Below are positions 1,302 through 20,560 of a stretch of 20,560 bases of DNA, in pieces. Both the position numbers and the translations under genes were made by a program. The stretch is taken from positions 1 through 20,560 of IMG/VR virus record IMGVR_UViG_3300029953_000174; one strand, 5' to 3'. The notes below the pieces were generated by a model. It did not search any database and was not told the DNA's origin. It saw nothing but the letters and a program-made list of their open reading frames with translations. Numbering within the stretch: the first letter of the stretch is position 1; each line of letters starts with the position of its first letter. Source of the DNA: a virus.

Positions 1302-2216
1302 TTAAGAGGCAAATCCGAAGGAGCCAATAGAGACCCCATCCATATATACAGTGGTAGAACACGAGGTATCCGTTCCCCAACTGGATGTTCCACTAAATGA
1401 GAAGTTACCTGTAGGACTGGAAGTCCCCAGGGTAACAGGTCCCACGATACTTCCCGATGGGTAAAAAACTGTGGTCTCAGTAACGGTAGCACTACACCAG
1501 GAACTAGCGATATTCAGGGTGATAGTGGTTCCAGTAGGAGCAGTGGATGGACCATAGCTATATGTGGGAGTATATTGACCGAAGTTGGCATAGTTATAGG
1601 TATAGACGGGGGTTCCTCCCACAGATAACACTGCAGTCCCTGTCCAACCTCCAGCAGGCCAACTGGCTGTCCCGGTGTAGCTGAAATTCCCGGAGCCATC
1701 CGTGGTTCCGAGAGTAACTGGGGGGGCACTAGTAACAACCCCACCAGTGGAGTTATAAATGGTCTGAGTATAGGAAACAGCAGCAAGCGGGGTAGACCCC
1801 GTAATGCTAAGGTAAGTACTTGCTCCATTGGGGGCATCATAAGGAGCCCAGCTATAACTCGGAGGAGATGCTGAGCTAATGGAGTAGGTAGACCCCACAG
1901 TTACGGTGTTTCCCGAGCTATCCACCGCCTTCACCTGAAGGGTATGAGAACCCGCACCAATTTGACCGGCATTTCCCCCGCTATAGTTAACCGAGGCTCC
2001 AGCAGTGAACGAAAAATTATTCCAAGAACCACCGTCGAGCTCCCATTGAATAGTGGAGATAGCCCCCGCAGTGGTAGTGGCTACCCCAGAAATGGCCTCA
2101 GGGGTAGAGTTGCTGATAATGGTACTCCCATTAGCGGGAGTATTAATGGAGAGGGTAAGAGGGAAGGCTCCACCGTTTCCTAGTATTCCTGCATTTAGAC
2201 ATCCAGGAACGATCAT
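1302..2216 (-). CDS. Ig-like tail/fibre protein with duplicated C-terminal module
   Basis: This 304-residue protein has three parts. Residues about 20-115 resemble a bacterial Ig-like domain (INTPANGSTI at the start; GSHTLQVKAVDSSGNTV, as in Ig folds that bind surfaces). Residues 117-211 and 214-304 are two copies of one beta-rich module. Both have P-[ST]-YS, then PVTLGT, then GNFS[YF][ST]GT[AS]SW. The cysteines at 241 and 286 are only in the second copy. Despite being extracellular in kind it has no signal peptide, as expected for a virion protein assembled in the cytoplasm. The start overlaps the upstream stop as ATGA. In phages, Ig-like domains usually help weak binding to host surface sugars. 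The role as a host-binding accessory tail protein is inferred from content and position. Confidence 0.65.
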   Translation of the reverse strand: MIVPGCLNAGILGNGGAFPLTLSINTPANGSTIISNSTPEAISGVATTTAGAISTIQWELDGGSWNNFSFTAGASVNYSGGNAGQIGAGSHTLQVKAVDSSGNTVTVGSTYSISSASPPSYSWAPYDAPNGASTYLSITGSTPLAAVSYTQTIYNSTGGVVTSAPPVTLGTTDGSGNFSYTGTASWPAGGWTGTAVLSVGGTPVYTYNYANFGQYTPTYSYGPSTAPTGTTITLNIASSWCSATVTETTVFYPSGSIVGPVTLGTSSPTGNFSFSGTSSWGTDTSCSTTVYMDGVSIGSFGFAS

Positions 2217-2872
2217 GATATATTCCCTGCGGCGGATAAGACTATCCGGTTATCATAATCCACAAAGTACAGAAGGGAGTCCTGGCCATTCGCTCCAGCT
2301 GTCAGGTTAACTCGAGCTCCGTTGGCTCCTACCCAAGACGTAGATCTACTGGTAATCGTACGACCTCCCGTGGAATCCTGTAAAAAGGTAATGATTCCAC
2401 TTTGACCGGGGACTACGTTTGTGGGAGTCCCGAGAACGAAATTTCCCGTAACGGCGTTAGTTACTCCGGTTCCTGCCCCTACACTGAAATTATTAGAAGC
2501 CCCAAAATTCAGGGTCAAAGTTCCGGCAGGGGCCGCAGGTTGAACGGGCAAGAAAGCTCCACGTTGACCGACAGTCCAGTTATTATTATTGGTTGTTAGG
2601 GAGTTCTGAACAGCCAGAAGAAAGTTTCCTACCAACTCTGACATATTATTATCATCATTAGCGCTATTCCCAGACTCATTAACGATGAATTGACCTATCA
2701 TTGCGGCTACAAAAGCCGATTGACGAATGGTGGTATTGATCTGTTGAGAGCTGGCTGTTCCAGTCTGATATCCATTCAGTAGCAAACTAGTGAGGGCTGC
2801 ATAGGCCGTGGGGGACAGGGTGTTAGCTGATCCACCTGTTGCGAATTGTTGAAACTGATTAACAGCGGTCAT
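2213..2872 (-). CDS. Tail fibre-like protein
   Basis: This is a 219-residue protein with no signal peptide. The N-terminal half (MTAVNQFQQFATGGSANTLS, then AYAALTSLLLNGYQTGTASSQQINTT) is helical. It matches the N-terminal part of many phage tail fibre or tail tip proteins, where it attaches to the baseplate. The C-terminal half is beta-rich and ends in NGQDSLLYFVDYDNRIVLS, a closing segment I associate with phage fibre proteins. The gene follows the DUF2612 baseplate gene, with an AGAGGA ribosome binding site before the ATG. It is coupled to the Ig-like gene by ATGA. Length is well below that of a full receptor-binding fibre, so it is likely one subunit of a several-part fibre or the adaptor for it. 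The fibre assignment is moderately sure; receptor specificity cannot be read. Confidence 0.7.
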   Translation of the reverse strand: MTAVNQFQQFATGGSANTLSPTAYAALTSLLLNGYQTGTASSQQINTTIRQSAFVAAMIGQFIVNESGNSANDDNNMSELVGNFLLAVQNSLTTNNNNWTVGQRGAFLPVQPAAPAGTLTLNFGASNNFSVGAGTGVTNAVTGNFVLGTPTNVVPGQSGIITFLQDSTGGRTITSRSTSWVGANGARVNLTAGANGQDSLLYFVDYDNRIVLSAAGNIS

Positions 2873-2882
2873 ATTATCCTCT

Positions 2883-3569
2883 TTATGCTATAAGTCCGGC
2901 CCAGGATCCACTATCGAATCCTGCGAAATTGGGTGTGTTTAAATCAAATGCAAATAATGGCCCAGGAACTAGTTGGTAAAAATAATCCGTAATCAATACC
3001 CCAGCCGGCCTCAAGTTCAGGTCCCCTTGAGTAAACAAGGCCAACATCAGGGCATCAGGAGTGGTTTGCCCGATAAGTCCCATCTGCATGGTCAAGTTCG
3101 CGGGGTCTTGAATAAATACTGTGAACCCCAGGGGAGTAAAAAGTATCTCCGCTATTTCATAAGCTTGGGGTAAACTACCGTCCCATTGGTTATTCAGGAT
3201 TTTGGCGTAGACTACCAAACGATAGTGGTCATCGGGAAGATTCACGAGACCAGAGGTGGGGTCTGTAGGTCCTTGCCAAACCCCCTGATCAAATCCTAAC
3301 CCCGGAGTATCAAAAGCAAAATAGACTCCAGTAATGGGTTCCTCTAATTGTCTGCTTACTCCCACCCATTGACCAACCACATCCAGTTGACTCCCCACAG
3401 CAACATCCACATCATACAAACCGTTCATCACCTGGTAGAGTGCAATCATGTCAGCGAAAGGCTGACAGGTAGCAGAGACCATTGAGGTGAAGTTAGGCTT
3501 ATTGGAATGCTCAGAGGTGATTAGATTTGTATATGGGTAACTGAGGCCCGTAACGTTAGTTATGGACAT
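2883..3569 (-). CDS. DUF2612-type baseplate protein (Mu gp48-like position)
   Basis: This 228-residue protein carries the hallmarks of the DUF2612 phage family. These are a helical N-terminal third (ADMIALYQVMNGLYDVDVAVGSQLDVVGQWVG), a middle FDTPGLGFDQGVWQGPTDPTSG, and a DDHYRLVVYAKILNNQWDGS segment. In related phages it lies directly after baseplate J and forms the outer part of the baseplate wedge, linking it to fibres, as gp48/gpI proteins do in Mu and P2. Here its ATG follows the J-gene stop with no base in between (TAAATG). A second FDxxxxFxGFDSGSW segment near the C-terminus echoes the middle FDTPGLGFDQG segment and may be a small internal repeat. The fibre-like gene follows after 10 bases. 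The family call is confident; the structural role is taken from homologous systems. Confidence 0.85.
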   Translation of the reverse strand: MSITNVTGLSYPYTNLITSEHSNKPNFTSMVSATCQPFADMIALYQVMNGLYDVDVAVGSQLDVVGQWVGVSRQLEEPITGVYFAFDTPGLGFDQGVWQGPTDPTSGLVNLPDDHYRLVVYAKILNNQWDGSLPQAYEIAEILFTPLGFTVFIQDPANLTMQMGLIGQTTPDALMLALFTQGDLNLRPAGVLITDYFYQLVPGPLFAFDLNTPNFAGFDSGSWAGLIA

Positions 3570-4751
3570 TTAAGCCACCGACAATTGGATATTAGCTGCC
3601 GTACAGCTAGCTGCAGCGTTATAGGCAATGGTAACATTCCCCGTTCCTGTGGGACTAGCGCTCGTTCCTAAATAGAAGGTAGAGATGTAGAAGGTAGCTC
3701 CTAAGGACCCCCCGAGAGAGGCCACTGCGGAGGCCTGTGAGGCATAAACATCCTCTCCAATCCCCAGAGCTGCGGTGAATGCGGCTAGGGCATTCATCAA
3801 GGCGACTCCCGTAGTCGATACATAGCCATTTAATGGCTGAATGGTCACCGCATAATAGATCGGAACTTCCATTAGTTCAAAGAAGTTAATAGTAGTGGGA
3901 AGCCCCACCTGGTCCACACTGATATACTGAGTGGTTCCGTAGGTCTGAATACCGGGGGGCTTCTCAAGAGCGATAGCCTGACCGATCAATGTTACTGAGC
4001 CGCCCTCCACAATGGGGGCAATACTATGGGCCGGAACTCCATTACTATCGGTGGCCCCCGTGGCATTCTCATATATGTAAGACCTTCCCACCCCAGGGAC
4101 ATTGGCTACGTTTGCTGCGATAGCGTCAATGATTGACCGGGCCGGTATTGCAGTCGAGTTACTTTGGCGAATTCGAAGAGCCCCATCCGTTTCAAGTGGG
4201 TTTCCCACAGTGGCCGCAGCAGTATTCGTAAATGTCTGCCAACCCGACTGGGGGTTATAGATGGTGTTAATCTGTCCAATGCCTGCGGCAATCGATCCAG
4301 GGGCCTGGGCCGTAACGGTAACGGTGGTGGACCCGGAAATCCCTATGGTTACTGAGGGAGGAAGCCCCCACATATTCCCATTGACGTCTTCCACCACTCC
4401 GTTAAGTATGACGGTTCCGACTGTTCCTCCGACATTACCAACGGCCTGAGAGTTAGTAGGAGCTAGTCTCTGCATTCCATTGATCTTCACCAGGGAAGAT
4501 AGATTCGTTCCTTGAGAATAAGAGGGTGAGAAAGATTGAAAGACTGAAATGGCAGCCTGGTTACAATCATTAATGGCCGAAGCGATAGCCGCTATCCACT
4601 GTCCATCCTGAGAATCAGGGTCGACATAAATGTCCGATCCGTAGATACCCTGGAAGGTAGCAATTAAGCTATTGTAAATGTCATTAAACAGGGGAGCCGA
4701 GATACCCGTAGAAGAGATAGTCGGTCCAAGTGTCGCAAGAGGGTAGGTCAT
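3570..4751 (-). CDS. Baseplate J-like protein (Mu gp47 / P2 J family)
   Basis: This 393-residue protein forms the baseplate wedge that surrounds the hub and transmits the trigger for sheath contraction. The N-terminus (LGPTISSTGISAPLFNDIYN, then GIYGSDIYVDPDSQDGQWIAAIASAIND) and the following SYSQGTNLSSLVKINGMQR are typical of the Baseplate_J domain. A beta-rich middle (TVGTVILNGVVEDVNG) and the RIRQSNSTAIPARSIIDAI segment also fit. Length is normal for the family. Its ATG overlaps the stop of the gp25-like gene as TAATG and its stop abuts the DUF2612 gene, so the order gp25-like, J, DUF2612 is the canonical wedge cassette. There are no obvious defects. The call is confident. Confidence 0.92.
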   Translation of the reverse strand: MTYPLATLGPTISSTGISAPLFNDIYNSLIATFQGIYGSDIYVDPDSQDGQWIAAIASAINDCNQAAISVFQSFSPSYSQGTNLSSLVKINGMQRLAPTNSQAVGNVGGTVGTVILNGVVEDVNGNMWGLPPSVTIGISGSTTVTVTAQAPGSIAAGIGQINTIYNPQSGWQTFTNTAAATVGNPLETDGALRIRQSNSTAIPARSIIDAIAANVANVPGVGRSYIYENATGATDSNGVPAHSIAPIVEGGSVTLIGQAIALEKPPGIQTYGTTQYISVDQVGLPTTINFFELMEVPIYYAVTIQPLNGYVSTTGVALMNALAAFTAALGIGEDVYASQASAVASLGGSLGATFYISTFYLGTSASPTGTGNVTIAYNAAASCTAANIQLSVA

Positions 4752-5164
4752 TAGGTCACCGAAGAAATTCCAAGGGTATAAGTATATCCAATTGAGTCCC
4801 CGATATTCGAGACATTCAGGTTGGACAGGATAACTTGTCCATAGACAGTATCTACCGTGCAGGCTACAAAAGCCCGACGAGTCTCTGTGTTGACTCCGCT
4901 AACATAATCAACGATTTCGTTGACTCCCTGCGTATCCAGAATTGCCCCCTGGATAGCCTGATCATAAGAGGCCATTCGATCCATCCCCAGGATTTTGGTG
5001 TCATAGGGGACTCCCACAGTGGGGTCAAGGAACCATTCCCCCTGAACAAGTCCGAGCCGGGTCTGGATAGCCTGAGCCACCGCTTCCGGCTGATTGACCC
5101 AAAAATTCCCAGACTGTTGCCCGAAGGTATAATCACCACGAGAATCAAGTTTTCTGTAGATCAT
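4751..5164 (-). CDS. gp25-like baseplate wedge / sheath initiator protein
   Basis: This 137-residue protein is in the place where gp25/gpW-type wedge proteins are found, between the spike and baseplate J. Residues 1-20 are polar. Then QPEAVAQAIQTRLGLVQGEWFLDPTVGVPYDTKILG matches the common phage pattern in which a helix is followed by G-E-W-x-x-D-x-x-x-G-(V/I)-P-Y. The remainder (AIQGAILDTQGVNEIVDYVSG and a beta-rich tail) completes the lysozyme-inhibitor-like fold of the family. In contractile tails this protein joins the wedge to the first sheath ring. The ATG overlaps the spike stop as ATGA and the stop overlaps J as TAATG. The call is confident by motif and synteny. Confidence 0.85.
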   Translation of the reverse strand: MIYRKLDSRGDYTFGQQSGNFWVNQPEAVAQAIQTRLGLVQGEWFLDPTVGVPYDTKILGMDRMASYDQAIQGAILDTQGVNEIVDYVSGVNTETRRAFVACTVDTVYGQVILSNLNVSNIGDSIGYTYTLGISSVT

Positions 5165-15589: not shown

Positions 15590-16657
15590 TTACAGACCGT
15601 CGTAGTACCCGACTGTTTCCGGGTAGACGATTTCAGTGCGACCCAGGCGGCAGTAGTACGTCGTCTTGTGGTAGATCGAGTCGTATTGAATCGGAGTGCG
15701 TTGCAGGAGAGTCATCGGGAAGCGCAGCCGTTGATACTCCTTGAGATAGACCACAGCACGGTCCACAGTACCAGCAGTACCGACTGTGCCACCTGAACCC
15801 GCGCCGAGTAGCCACTTGACCGGGAAGATCACCAACTTGCCTTGGCCTGAAGTGGAGAGAATGTTGTTCTCCAAAATATACTTCAGGATGGAGACGTTGC
15901 CGGCATTCGACACCTTCGCAGTAGCGATGAAGCCGAACTGTGACGGTGGCAGCAGCAGACGATCTGGCATTACGGCCAAGGCCGAATTGTTCCAGTTGGT
16001 CACCAGCATGTTGTTGACGTCTGCCAGGATCTCATCCGGGGTTTTCTTAGCCCAGGTTGTGGAACCGGAAGCACCGGCAGGCAGGGCAACCGGAGTCACC
16101 AGGGTGCTGTTGACCAGGCCGTAGCACGCTGTCTTGCTGGTATCACCGATGTAGACCTGCTCATCGATGTCCATCTGGTGCTTGAGCTGCAGACCTTCGT
16201 ATTTCTGTTGGTCCACAGGACGACCAAGGCGAGCAGCCGATTCGAGCTCAGGAATGGTGTATTTCAATTCCATACCCCAGAGTTCCAACGGGTTGGCCAG
16301 CTTGGCGATATCCACACCCATGCCGCCGATTTGATCGGATGCTTTGCCGATCCAAGCCTTACCGTTGCCGATACCGTTGCCGGCACCCAGGCCACCCGCC
16401 GAAGCGAACGTGGACAGTGTATAGCTGGTAGCTTCATCGGCGATTGTGGCATCTCCACGCAGGTCGATATCGCGAGGATATGTCACCGCTGCCAGAGGCA
16501 TGTGAAGGGTTTGATCGAGGCGTTCTAGCTCACCGACCAAGAAGGCGCCAGTGGAGTCGACGAACTTTCCGTCTCGGGTTTGTACCGCGTGAGGCAGCTT
16601 CTTACCAGCCTGAGTCCCGTTGGCGTCGATGGTTTGGAAACCATTGTCAAATGTCAT
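15590..16657 (-). CDS. Major capsid protein (DUF2184-type)
   Basis: This 355-residue protein is the main shell subunit. The N-terminal half has LVGELERLDQTLHMPLAAVTYPRDIDLRGD, then EATSYTLSTFASAG and LANPLELWGMELKYTIPELESAARLGRPVDQQK, a hallmark of DUF2184 capsid proteins. The C-terminal part (AVMPDRLLLPPSQFGFIATAK, RAVVYLKEYQRLRFPMTLLQRTPIQYDSIYHKTTYYCRLGRTEIVYPETVGYYDGL) is also diagnostic, in particular the R-(L)-G-x-x-E-(I/V)-x-x-P-E end. GTG 16660 is directly before ATG 16657; the AAGGA ribosome binding site lies 7 bases from GTG and 10 from ATG, so either could be used. The fold is HK97-like by family. It is preceded by the cement gene and followed by a terminator. The call is very confident. 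Confidence 0.95.
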   Translation of the reverse strand: MTFDNGFQTIDANGTQAGKKLPHAVQTRDGKFVDSTGAFLVGELERLDQTLHMPLAAVTYPRDIDLRGDATIADEATSYTLSTFASAGGLGAGNGIGNGKAWIGKASDQIGGMGVDIAKLANPLELWGMELKYTIPELESAARLGRPVDQQKYEGLQLKHQMDIDEQVYIGDTSKTACYGLVNSTLVTPVALPAGASGSTTWAKKTPDEILADVNNMLVTNWNNSALAVMPDRLLLPPSQFGFIATAKVSNAGNVSILKYILENNILSTSGQGKLVIFPVKWLLGAGSGGTVGTAGTVDRAVVYLKEYQRLRFPMTLLQRTPIQYDSIYHKTTYYCRLGRTEIVYPETVGYYDGL

Positions 16658-16674
16658 CACGATTCTGTCCTTTC

Positions 16675-17205
16675 TTAGTTGTTGAACCGGATTTCAACGT
16701 TGCCTGAAGCATCCGGCGAACCATTGAAGAAAGCGTTTGCTACGACAGAAGTGTTGCCAGCGGAGTAGCTGGTTTCAAATCCACCCAATACGTGTGAGCC
16801 AGTCGATGCAGCAGCCCAGACATAGACAGTACCACCCTTGACCGGCGCCTGACCAGCAGGAACCGTGGTCATGATGTAACCCGCAGTCAGGACGTCAATG
16901 ACGCCAGAGACCGGAGGAGCAACAGAACCGAACGGAGCCGCACCGAAGTTCTGGTTGGTCTGATTCTGTTGGGTCGGGTAGGCACGAACCGTGATGCCCC
17001 AGGTGACCACAGGGACGGTGTTGCTCTGGTCGCCAGCTGCGAAGGGACGAACCCCTTGCGTAGTGGCATCGACCAGGACTGCTTGGCCATATGCAGTCGG
17101 TGGGGAGTTAACATCGATGAGGTCGGCCTCGATTGATGCCGGATGGGTGCGATTCACATCACCGGGAAACCCGGCATTCATCCGATATAGGATTGCGGTA
17201 GACAT
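16675..17205 (-). CDS. Capsid decoration / cement protein
   Basis: This 176-residue, beta-rich protein is encoded directly upstream of the major capsid gene, the usual place for decoration proteins. Segments such as GFPGDVNRTHPASIEADLID, PTAYGQAVLVDATTQGVRPFAAGD and VVTWGITVRAYPTQQ are typical of the phage structural cement family (gp24-like/DUF2190-like). There the (F/Y)-x-G-(D/E)-x-x-R and G-(I/V)-x-V-R patterns recur. It should bind the outside of the capsid at lattice points to stabilise it. AAGGAAAT lies upstream of the ATG. The stop is 17 bases from the capsid ATG. The call is confident for a decoration role and less so for the exact family. Confidence 0.82.
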   Translation of the reverse strand: MSTAILYRMNAGFPGDVNRTHPASIEADLIDVNSPPTAYGQAVLVDATTQGVRPFAAGDQSNTVPVVTWGITVRAYPTQQNQTNQNFGAAPFGSVAPPVSGVIDVLTAGYIMTTVPAGQAPVKGGTVYVWAAASTGSHVLGGFETSYSAGNTSVVANAFFNGSPDASGNVEIRFNN

Positions 17206-17219
17206 GTGGATTTCCTTTC

Positions 17220-17990
17220 TTAGTTAAACTTCTTGGCGTTATCTTCAGCCCAGACCTTGCCGATGTCAGCGACGGACTGGATTCGGGAGGTACGGATTTC
17301 TTGACTGTGGCCCATATGATCTTGGCCGCGTGTGGCATCCGTATTGATGGCCTTCTTCATGGCACCGACTGCTTTGAAGATTGTGCGGATGGCATCGCAG
17401 GACATTTTCTTGGTATCCAGCTGTTTGCCCCCCATAACTTCCTCGACCAGGCTACGAGTAGCCGGTTGAACGAAGGCCAGGTCCAGAGCTTGGCGACGTA
17501 GGCCGCAGATGTTCTTGAACGAGACCTTTGGAGCGGCCTTGTGATCGAACGTAGGGACTTTGATACCGGGTGCAATGATTTCGGCCAGGGCGATGGTGTC
17601 GCGGTAGCTGTCAGCTAAGTAAGCGGAGTCAGTGGCTTTACGGGCACGGTCACCAGTGCCGACTGGAGCTTCTTCTTCCAGTTGACCTTCAGTTTCCTTA
17701 TCATCATTCGCCGAAGGAGTTTCTCCCTCGCCAAGCTTGGCTTCGATTGCATCCAGGCGATCACGGAACTCCTGATGTTCCTGGGAGTTCTGAGCGATAT
17801 GCTCCTGAAGTGCAGTATCATCGTCCATCGCAGGAGCGGGAGTCTCTCCTTGGCCGTGGATATGGATGTGGGTAGCTTCTTCGTTGCCCTCGTCCTTTGT
17901 TTCCCCTTCCTTCAGGGCTTCCTTAAGGCCTTCTTCGTCCTGTGACTTGAAGGCGGCCATCGCCCGATCAATCCAGCTTCTCTTTGCCAT
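17220..17990 (-). CDS. Probable nested scaffold protein from an internal start
   Basis: ATG 17990 is in frame with the protease and preceded by GAGGAGAAAGAA, a near-perfect ribosome binding site with six bases of spacing. It is better than the one at the main start. The product would be 256 residues, starting MAKRSWIDRAMAAFKSQDEE and covering the whole region after the protease domain, including the coiled coil. In lambda and similar phages the scaffold (Nu3) is made this way inside the protease gene C. The match in layout supports this, but expression is not shown by sequence alone. Confidence 0.55.
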   Translation of the reverse strand: MAKRSWIDRAMAAFKSQDEEGLKEALKEGETKDEGNEEATHIHIHGQGETPAPAMDDDTALQEHIAQNSQEHQEFRDRLDAIEAKLGEGETPSANDDKETEGQLEEEAPVGTGDRARKATDSAYLADSYRDTIALAEIIAPGIKVPTFDHKAAPKVSFKNICGLRRQALDLAFVQPATRSLVEEVMGGKQLDTKKMSCDAIRTIFKAVGAMKKAINTDATRGQDHMGHSQEIRTSRIQSVADIGKVWAEDNAKKFN

Positions 17991-18560
17991 TTCTTTCTCC
18001 TCAAATTTACGGTCACCGATAGCACAGCGCCATCCACATCGACCAGACTCAACTAATGCTACGTGGTTACCAACAATATTCTCTTGCTCTCCGACTCCTG
18101 GGCTAGTTTCCTTATAGTCAGCTTCGTAACCGCAGCTAACCTCCCGTTTTCCTGCTCGAACCGCTTCGATGGCTTCTGGGGTTGTAATCAGCAAGTCCGC
18201 CAGCATCAGGTCATCCTGCGCACCCGACCCCCGGCGAACGTTCAACACCAGCCCGACTGTCAGCTCTTTCCAAGTGACTGGAGTGACTGAGCCGGCTACT
18301 GGATGGTCGTCAGTTACTGACTTGCCGTTGAAACTAGCCAGCGTCTCAGGACGGAACACCTCTCTCGGAGACCTTACGATCCTGACTAATCCATCGGGGT
18401 CAGGGGTAATGACTGGAGTTCCGTCCTCGTTCTGAAGCTCAACACCCCCATACACCATGTCGCCGGTTCTGGCGATGGGCACCTCTTCGCAAAGCAGGTA
18501 ACCCTCAGGAGTGAGGCTCTGCTTATTGCTGAGTTGCGCTATGGTGTAAAACTGTTTCAT
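17220..18560 (-). CDS. Prohead maturation protease (DUF2213) with C-terminal scaffold region
   Basis: This 446-residue protein has a protease domain in residues about 1-185. SVTDDHPVAG holds H86, REVSCGYEADY holds S142, and QENIVGNHVALVESGRCG holds H166. These are the family's conserved histidine, probable nucleophilic serine and following histidine. It should cut scaffold and capsid proteins during maturation. Residues about 190-446 look like scaffold, with an acidic Glu/Gln-rich helix and coiled coil at 247-277. HIHIH is at 231-235. The frame has an internal ATG with a strong ribosome binding site at residue 191 (next entry). The start is ATGA-coupled to the secreted-protein gene, with no good ribosome binding site of its own. 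The call is confident. Confidence 0.9.
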   Translation of the reverse strand: MKQFYTIAQLSNKQSLTPEGYLLCEEVPIARTGDMVYGGVELQNEDGTPVITPDPDGLVRIVRSPREVFRPETLASFNGKSVTDDHPVAGSVTPVTWKELTVGLVLNVRRGSGAQDDLMLADLLITTPEAIEAVRAGKREVSCGYEADYKETSPGVGEQENIVGNHVALVESGRCGWRCAIGDRKFEEKEMAKRSWIDRAMAAFKSQDEEGLKEALKEGETKDEGNEEATHIHIHGQGETPAPAMDDDTALQEHIAQNSQEHQEFRDRLDAIEAKLGEGETPSANDDKETEGQLEEEAPVGTGDRARKATDSAYLADSYRDTIALAEIIAPGIKVPTFDHKAAPKVSFKNICGLRRQALDLAFVQPATRSLVEEVMGGKQLDTKKMSCDAIRTIFKAVGAMKKAINTDATRGQDHMGHSQEIRTSRIQSVADIGKVWAEDNAKKFN

Positions 18561-19330
18561 TGCTGGACGTATGTCATCACGCCTTGAACGCTGGTGGTAG
18601 CAGCAGTAGTCAGGCAGACTTGATACCCCGCAGCTGCCGACATGATCGTGCCGCCATACTCACCGAGACTGATGACCCCGATGGTAGCCGATGGAATCAT
18701 TGCACCAGTCAGTGTGGCAGCAGTGGTGTCGCAGTCCGCAGATGTGCGGGTTCCAGAAGTCACCGTGACTGTCGGATTGGTACCCGCAGCTGTCAGAACC
18801 AGGCCACAGACATACACCGAGGTAGTGCCGGAGGTGTCCACGACCTTGGTGGTAGCCGATGAGCTTTGGTTGATGACCTTGCTCAACTTCTGAACTGCCG
18901 GGTCTGCGCAGGGGTCAGTCTTAACCACCCCAGTCGGTGTAGCAGCCATCGTCACGGTACAGGAAGCGGTCAATGCCGTGATGTTCAGACGCACTTGGCT
19001 GAAGCCTCCGATATCCGAACGCCAGAAGCCTGGAGCCGAGACCGACATCGAACTAGTACCGGCAGGGATAGCCGCCAAGTTCAGGTTGGACCAGTTGGTG
19101 CCGTCATTCGATCCCTGCAGTGTACCGGCCAGCGAAGTACAGGTGCCGGTAATCCGGGTGCTGAGAACCGCTTGACCCTGACTGACGAAAGAGTAGACCG
19201 CTGGAGCAGAGTAGGTCTTCGTCGGGCCAATGGCCGAGGGGATGTAGGTCGGATTGGTGTAGGGATAGGTCTGAGCAAAGGACAGAGCTGCCACAACCGA
19301 CAGCATCAGACCGAGGAGTATTTTCTTCAT
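18557..19330 (-). CDS. Sec-exported phage protein with two virion-like domains and six cysteines
   Basis: This 257-residue protein has a clear signal peptide: MKK, a hydrophobic core (ILLGLMLSVVAALSFA), and cleavage after SFA with Q20 first in the mature form. Residues about 40-135 (LQGSNDGTNWSNLNLAAIPA, GFWRSDIGGFSQVRLNITAL) resemble a beta-sandwich domain common in phage structural proteins. Residues about 139-257 (DPCADPAVQKLSKVIN ... GVMTYVQQ) form a second domain that I associate with phage genomes. Cysteines are at 64, 124, 141, 175, 200 and 239, an even number, consistent with disulfides outside the cytoplasm. ATG 19330 was chosen because AAGGAA precedes it; a longer TTG-start frame lacks the signal at its N-terminus. 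It is ATGA-coupled to the protease. Function unknown; a host-envelope target is inferred. Confidence 0.8.
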   Translation of the reverse strand: MKKILLGLMLSVVAALSFAQTYPYTNPTYIPSAIGPTKTYSAPAVYSFVSQGQAVLSTRITGTCTSLAGTLQGSNDGTNWSNLNLAAIPAGTSSMSVSAPGFWRSDIGGFSQVRLNITALTASCTVTMAATPTGVVKTDPCADPAVQKLSKVINQSSSATTKVVDTSGTTSVYVCGLVLTAAGTNPTVTVTSGTRTSADCDTTAATLTGAMIPSATIGVISLGEYGGTIMSAAAGYQVCLTTAATTSVQGVMTYVQQ

Positions 19331-19354
19331 GATTGTTTCCTTATCTTGGGGGGC

Positions 19355-19378
19355 TCTGGATTTTGACGGCAATCCAGA
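19355..19378 (-). repeat. Perfect 8-bp hairpin between the two secreted-protein genes
   Basis: TCTGGATT (read on the minus strand) pairs with AATCCAGA across an 8-base loop. It lies in the 58-base gap before the second secreted-protein gene. There is no T tract after it, so it is not a typical terminator. It may affect RNA stability or ribosome access, but nothing more can be said. Confidence 0.5.
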
Positions 19379-19388
19379 ATGGCCGAAT

Positions 19389-19814
19389 TCAATAAACTAG
19401 AAGTGCGTCAACGGAGAAGGTCATGCTGGGAGTCGAGGCCCCGGCCAGAGTTACTCGCCAAGCGGGTGGGAGCATATCGGATACGGCCACGTTAGCTGCT
19501 GGGGTGATCGATGGACAGACCTTAAGCACCGTGGTACCGGTGCCAGCGATTGCAGCCCCAGTCAGGAGCGTGTAGTAGACGTTGGCCACAGCATCATAGC
19601 CCTGCACTGTGGGGGTATAAGTGCCACTGGTGAACGAGGTCACGTTGACGACCACATGAACGCACTTGCGAGCCCCGTTGAGCTGAACTGGAGTATTGAC
19701 GGTAGTCGCAGTCTGTGCGGCAGAGGCCAAGATATTAACTGTGGCGTTCGATACCTGCGCGAATGCTTGCATTGAACAGGCCAGAAGCAGCAGGGAAAGT
19801 AGAATTTTCTTCAT
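19389..19814 (-). CDS. Sec-exported small phage virion-domain protein
   Basis: This 141-residue protein starts MKKILLSLLLLACSMQAFAQ, a signal peptide with cleavage expected after AFA. LLAC inside it could be a poor lipobox, but signal peptidase I fits better. The mature part (KCVHVVVNVTSFTSGTYTPT, then TGAAIAGTGTTVLKVCPSIT, LPPAWRVTLAGASTPSMTFSVDALLVY) is the same type as small phage structural domains that usually have no signal. It holds exactly two cysteines (51 and 100), which may pair. The ATG overlaps the minor-head stop as ATGA, with GAGGA 8 bases upstream. It starts like the next gene (ATGAAGAAAAT), so the two signals may have a common source. Function unknown; see findings. Confidence 0.8.
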   Translation of the reverse strand: MKKILLSLLLLACSMQAFAQVSNATVNILASAAQTATTVNTPVQLNGARKCVHVVVNVTSFTSGTYTPTVQGYDAVANVYYTLLTGAAIAGTGTTVLKVCPSITPAANVAVSDMLPPAWRVTLAGASTPSMTFSVDALLVY

Positions 19815-20560
19815 TTATAATCCTCAGGGATAATAGGTTCGCAATAACAACGACAGTTGGGGAAAGATCCGGCGTGATAGTGTTTGCCAGGGTCGACTTC
19901 AGGAGCCTCGTTGAAGGCGATAACTTTTCCGTTCATCTTGCGATGACTCTTGCGTACATCCGAGTCCATAGAGGTGCGCCAGATGTAATGGGTGATGCCG
20001 GCAGACTCAGCCCTGACCTTTGTCAGTTCAGTAGCGGTACGTCCTACCTCAGTGCGAGCGATCATTGTTGCTCGGCTCTTGGTAACGTTGCCAGTGTCGA
20101 AAATCTCTTTCGCTATCTCAGAGGCCCGTGTAGAATCAGAGAGGCCAAGGATAGTGAGATCATGAACTCGCTGAGCGGCTTCCAAGGGTAAGGACTGAAT
20201 AAGCTTGACCTGATCGTTGAGGGCCTGTGCCATCGCGCGACCAATTGGGGCGTTCTCGATGAGGGCCTGTAGGTCACGTCCCATTTCATTACTAAACTGC
20301 TTCCACATGTCAGCATCGCGTCTCGCAATATCTTGGAGCATTCGTTTGGCCACAGACTCGGCCCAGGGGGTTATGGTTTCCGCATACCTGTGTAACGACC
20401 GGGTTAGCTCCCCTAGGTCCCCTACGACCCCGTTTGGGGCCAATCCCCGTACAATATGGTCGATTTGTTTAGCAACAGAGCGCAGCTTGCGGGCATAATC
20501 CAGCTCAGCCTTCCGGCTCTTTATGAATTTCTGCTGAGCGTTACGATCCGGCTTCTTCAT
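19811..20560 (-). CDS. Minor head protein (SPP1 gp7 / Mu F-like), start at window edge
   Basis: These 249 residues cover a minor capsid/head morphogenesis protein. The C-terminal half is diagnostic: ATMIARTEVGRTATELTKVRAES, then GITHYIWRTSMDSDVRKSHRKMNGK and the end HYHAGSFPNCRCYCEPIIP. This is the Phage_Mu_F/SPP1 gp7 motif series (A-R-T-E, W-x-(T/S)-(S)-x-D-x-x-V-R-x-x-H, and N-C-R-C). It acts at the portal vertex during assembly and early DNA ejection. The first codon is an ATG that coincides with the window end; the sequence after it (MKKPDRNAQQKFIKSRKAELDYARK) looks like a natural N-terminus, but upstream bases are not visible, so a longer protein cannot be excluded. It is ATGA-coupled to the secreted-protein gene. 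Confidence 0.9.
   Translation of the reverse strand: MKKPDRNAQQKFIKSRKAELDYARKLRSVAKQIDHIVRGLAPNGVVGDLGELTRSLHRYAETITPWAESVAKRMLQDIARRDADMWKQFSNEMGRDLQALIENAPIGRAMAQALNDQVKLIQSLPLEAAQRVHDLTILGLSDSTRASEIAKEIFDTGNVTKSRATMIARTEVGRTATELTKVRAESAGITHYIWRTSMDSDVRKSHRKMNGKVIAFNEAPEVDPGKHYHAGSFPNCRCYCEPIIPEDYK

Follow-up and report, generated by a model that had tools for sequence, protein, structure and literature searches.

XepA (PBSX) and YomS (SPbeta) of Bacillus subtilis are phage-encoded proteins with a common C2-like beta-sandwich fold, and their solved structures are pentamers. Neither has a signal peptide, and their genomic surroundings differ, XepA being encoded in a lysis cassette and YomS beside tail genes. 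XepA has been reported to be exported during phage development and to be missing from mature particles (PMC6834076). Capsid decoration and turret proteins, such as the turret head of HFTV1, are virion proteins and are not known as exported. Here we describe two consecutive genes of an uncultured phage, A and B, which lie within a head operon and encode proteins with Sec signal peptides. The first domain of B shares the fold of XepA and YomS, but B differs from both in its signal peptide, in a conserved cysteine pair, in a four-cysteine second domain and in its place in a head operon.

The window, i.e. the whole stretch of DNA analysed, is an entire virus record of IMG/VR, 20,560 bases long and possibly a fragment of a larger genome. 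Its minus strand encodes a phage module of the contractile-tail type, in the order MuF-like minor head protein, A, B, DUF2213 protease, cement protein, major capsid protein, DUF4054 and sheath. The MuF-like gene (19811..20560; PF04233, E 1.4e-17) is the upstream neighbour of A (19389..19814, 141 aa), which is followed by B (18557..19330, 257 aa), the DUF2213 head maturation protease (17220..18560; E 6.6e-46), a capsid cement protein of the E217 gp24/Pam3 gp6 type (16675..17205; PF22758/PF23982) and the major capsid protein (15590..16660; PF09950, 2e-70). A first-pass annotation had placed A and B correctly, and the minus strand does contain the two ORFs. It had also described them as coupled to the head genes by ATGA overlaps, which is true of the MuF/A and B/protease junctions; a 58-base gap separates A from B, and B has its own ribosome-binding site. 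The number of promoters and terminators around the two genes was not above chance. That A and B may be made at capsid-like levels is an idea based on operon position and overlapping codons. In the usual view, tailed phages build their heads entirely inside the cytoplasm.

Both proteins display the features of a Sec signal (a positively charged start, a hydrophobic core and small residues at -3/-1) by sequence and by a rule-based test. In A the signal peptide is MKKILLSLLLLACSMQAFA, followed by Q, with cleavage expected after residue 19 (between AFA and Q), and it precedes a beta domain of about 122 residues. The LLAC motif of A does not pass the PROSITE lipobox pattern, so that cleavage by signal peptidase I at this site is likelier than lipidation, and A was rejected as a lipoprotein. 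Structure prediction, proposed in the first-pass annotation as a check, gave for A an all-beta model of low confidence (mean pLDDT 56), with best matches at background level in the PDB and mostly to unnamed proteins of uncultured phages among viral models. Searches recovered no relatives of A beyond near-identical contigs, and since no diverged relatives were found, what we say of A derives from its own sequence and setting.

The longest ORF of B starts at a TTG (19372); we took instead the ATG at 19330, which yields the signal and has the ribosome-binding site. The signal peptide is MKKILLGLMLSVVAALSFA, again followed by Q, with cleavage expected after residue 19 (between SFA and Q), and no lipobox passes the PROSITE pattern. 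Just past the expected cleavage site begins a conserved arm, TYPYTNPTYIP, followed by the XepA/YomS-like first domain (about residues 30–135, with Cys64 and Cys124) and a second domain (about residues 138–257, 4 cysteines). The cysteine counts of the mature parts, 2 in A and 6 in B, were as the first-pass annotation had given them. In the AlphaFold2 model of B, about residues 30–135 are of good quality, and the second domain was poorly modelled. Neither protein had a significant match in Pfam or PHROGs.

Scanning viral contigs with B, we gathered and read, besides the window, 17 loci with the N-domain in the slot between the MuF and protease genes, all of them uncultured phage contigs (L004, L006, L007, L014, L015, L016, L019–L022, L024–L026, L051, L057, L058 and L062; L019 and L020 are close to each other). 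Wherever the downstream side was readable the B relative directly preceded the protease, save for one extra exported gene in L062 and L051. With curated starts, 17 of the 18 slot homologues, window included, passed the rule-based signal test, and the remaining one (L026) is signal-like by eye. Among their neighbours in the same loci only 1 of 61 passed (MuF 0/15, protease 0/18, cement 0/14, capsid 1/14). With automatic starts 24 of 32 B-like matches passed, and at least some of the misses had a start placed too far upstream or were the signal-less relative L008. The signals and slot of the B family are thus beyond chance, which bears out the earlier description of exported proteins between the minor head protein and the protease. 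No relatives of A or B appeared in isolate phages (tblastn, also with diverged members as queries, E limits up to 10), nor when the genomes of 84,980 bacterial and archaeal species were scanned twice, with a method that misses diverged members because it needs short, nearly exact peptide patterns. In L007 a small signal-less protein free of cysteines (4574-4888), weakly F5/8 type C-like, lies immediately upstream of the exported relative of B and possibly has the same fold, as judged by eye.

The signal peptide is retained in same-slot relatives down to 29% identity (the other members of a set of 14 aligned relatives are 29–82% identical to B), and its type is kept while its sequence drifts. 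This speaks against the signals being non-functional, in which case A and B would stay in the cytoplasm and enter the virion with the hydrophobic segment retained. Head-operon position and virion-type domains would suit such a fate, yet the conserved arm begins just after the cleavage site, and cysteines are even in number in signal-bearing proteins while the pair is absent from signal-less relatives, all of which makes it highly improbable.

Only 11 positions are invariant among the 14 aligned relatives, Cys64 and Cys124 among them. Three loci (L058, L062 and L051) do not have this pair and carry another one, so that mature cysteine counts stay even; mature N-domain proteins have 2 or 6 cysteines throughout, L026 being counted as 3 only since the cysteine of its signal was left uncut. 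Proteins with the second domain have 4 cysteines in it, to which extra modules add cysteines pairwise, and the mature count was even in 18 of 18 that were scored with signals removed (cut by eye), whereas L074, a near-copy of L073 whose signal was left uncut, was counted as odd. In L008, where a signal-less relative of the B N-domain follows the major capsid gene, the conserved pair is absent. A second exported family shares the slot (L015, L024 and L025) and is also found elsewhere (L092); L024, L025 and L092 have the signal and both cysteines, L015 has the signal and neither cysteine, and in L094, which is signal-less and adjoins a head protease, both cysteines are missing. Even, paired cysteines in company with a signal are the pattern expected of disulfides formed outside the cytoplasm, the bonds themselves being predicted from it. 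Judging by these sequence features, A and B are very probably exported, with oxidative folding. The homologue search suggested in the first-pass annotation found relatives of B both with the signal and without it (L008). Its view of the mature domains as virion-type agrees with the position of the signal-less relatives, which adjoin capsid or head genes (L008 for the B N-domain, L094 for the second slot family), and there is good support for its idea that domains of virion type acquired a signal for export.

The B N-domain model matched XepA with Z 15.7 (1.9 Å over 103 residues) and YomS with Z 15.0, the next row having Z 10.0. The C2-like beta-sandwich of these proteins was found, as a predicted model, in the B N-domain only, and B is known here from monomer models. 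A profile of 14 relatives found no match among PDB sequences at E up to 10. Since XepA has no signal or transmembrane segment and the profile matched no PDB sequence, the link to XepA is one of fold alone. A viral fold match of the N-domain is a 293 aa protein of Caulobacter phage Percy, which by its length fits gp52. Percy gp52 (L084:20790-21671) is signal-less and sits directly before a SAR endolysin and spanins, much like the place of XepA in its lysis cassette.

Taken together, the best explanation is that A and B are exported, disulfide-folded proteins with a XepA-like late role outside the cytoplasm, a reading to which we assign a probability of roughly 0.45. A and B would be translated alongside the head genes, pass through the Sec machinery of the host, lose their signals to signal peptidase I, and then fold outside the cytoplasm with disulfide bonds. 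The TYPYTNPTYIP arm would become the new N-terminus after cleavage and probably drives assembly or docking. Ring-shaped periplasmic assemblies may then bind the envelope late in infection and help lysis or alter the envelope, a Gram-negative envelope being assumed for the host on the appearance of the signals. The tools gave us the order of the genes, the signals, the pairing of the cysteines and the fold, and from these we infer export, disulfides and oligomers. The specific role at the envelope follows by analogy from the fold of B and the reported location of XepA and is tentative, its target and effect being weakly supported. Against it, A and B are encoded among head genes and not in a lysis cassette like that of XepA, and a role in the virion would agree just as well with where the genes lie, with their strong conservation and with their virion-type relatives.

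The main rival of this XepA-like envelope role is decoration of the virion, timed by lysis: A and B, exported and oxidised in the periplasm, would bind progeny heads once the inner membrane opens, export having kept them from capsid assembly until then. Selection on B is as strong as on the neighbouring head genes (dN/dS about 0.06 against L004, a strong purifying selection, with synonymous sites near saturation), which speaks for decoration, and to this can be added the place of B before the protease in all readable loci, the signal-less relative after the capsid gene in L008, and the conservation of the arm right behind the cleavage site, which suggests a conserved partner. The slot of L004 also holds a polysaccharide-deacetylase-like protein (3284-4939; PF01522 above cut-off), and such a domain is found on the HFTV1 capsid turret head (PMC12494034). 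However, no precedent was found in the literature searched, XepA is reported absent from virions, and binding would have to occur in the short interval of lysis, so that we consider decoration possible but rather unlikely. Unlikely too is its extension to a widespread class of tailed phages of uncultured hosts, which would form part of their virion surface outside the cytoplasm, from decoration proteins that receive their disulfides in the periplasm after export and join the heads only when lysis opens the cell. In L004, the gene before the deacetylase-like one (2767-3279) encodes a lipobox that passes.

Exported phage proteins may also act on the receptor, as T5 Llp, a superinfection exclusion lipoprotein, reportedly does by blocking its own. 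The first-pass annotation had thought of such roles for A and B. Late in infection, on the cell or on what is left of it, the exported domains could occupy or shield a receptor or serve as decoys. Export is itself supported, the N-domain is weakly similar in fold to carbohydrate-binding modules (Z about 7), and related loci encode exported proteins with lectin-like or tail-fibre-like domains. Unlike Llp, however, A and B have no receptor link, and they do not belong with exclusion lipoproteins of its type because no lipobox passes; a late-read position in the head operon suits exclusion poorly, and an arms race would not be expected to leave such strong purifying selection. XepA, the closest solved structure, points instead to a late exported protein with a link to lysis. 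We regard superinfection exclusion or receptor masking as distinctly unlikely. Sequence does not decide among envelope, decoration and exclusion roles.

Exported proteins from other phage lineages also contain the second domain of B, and several of these are encoded close to portal, capsid or terminase genes. Some exported proteins have a lectin-like domain or domains with matches in virion structural families. Given these proteins and the runs of exported proteins at other loci, virion-type domains with export signals recur beyond the window. Such runs of consecutive exported proteins lie in the phage structural region of L061 (1624-5589) and L063 (2190-6487); a lectin-like domain is among them, and L063 has a clear twin-arginine signal, SRRGFL, at 5072. 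In L092 a protein with a signal peptide (1328-3454) matches the PHROG tail-fibre-assembly family phrog_863, with two more exported proteins nearby. Exported proteins with virion-type domains apparently form a wide and undescribed set in phages, and we found no report, in the papers searched, of exported disulfide-type proteins in a head operon. An exported disulfide family in the head operons of several phage lineages would point either to an overlooked late-infection job outside the cytoplasm or to virion parts that come from there, and XepA, whose role is unsettled, would gain a larger set of fold relatives.
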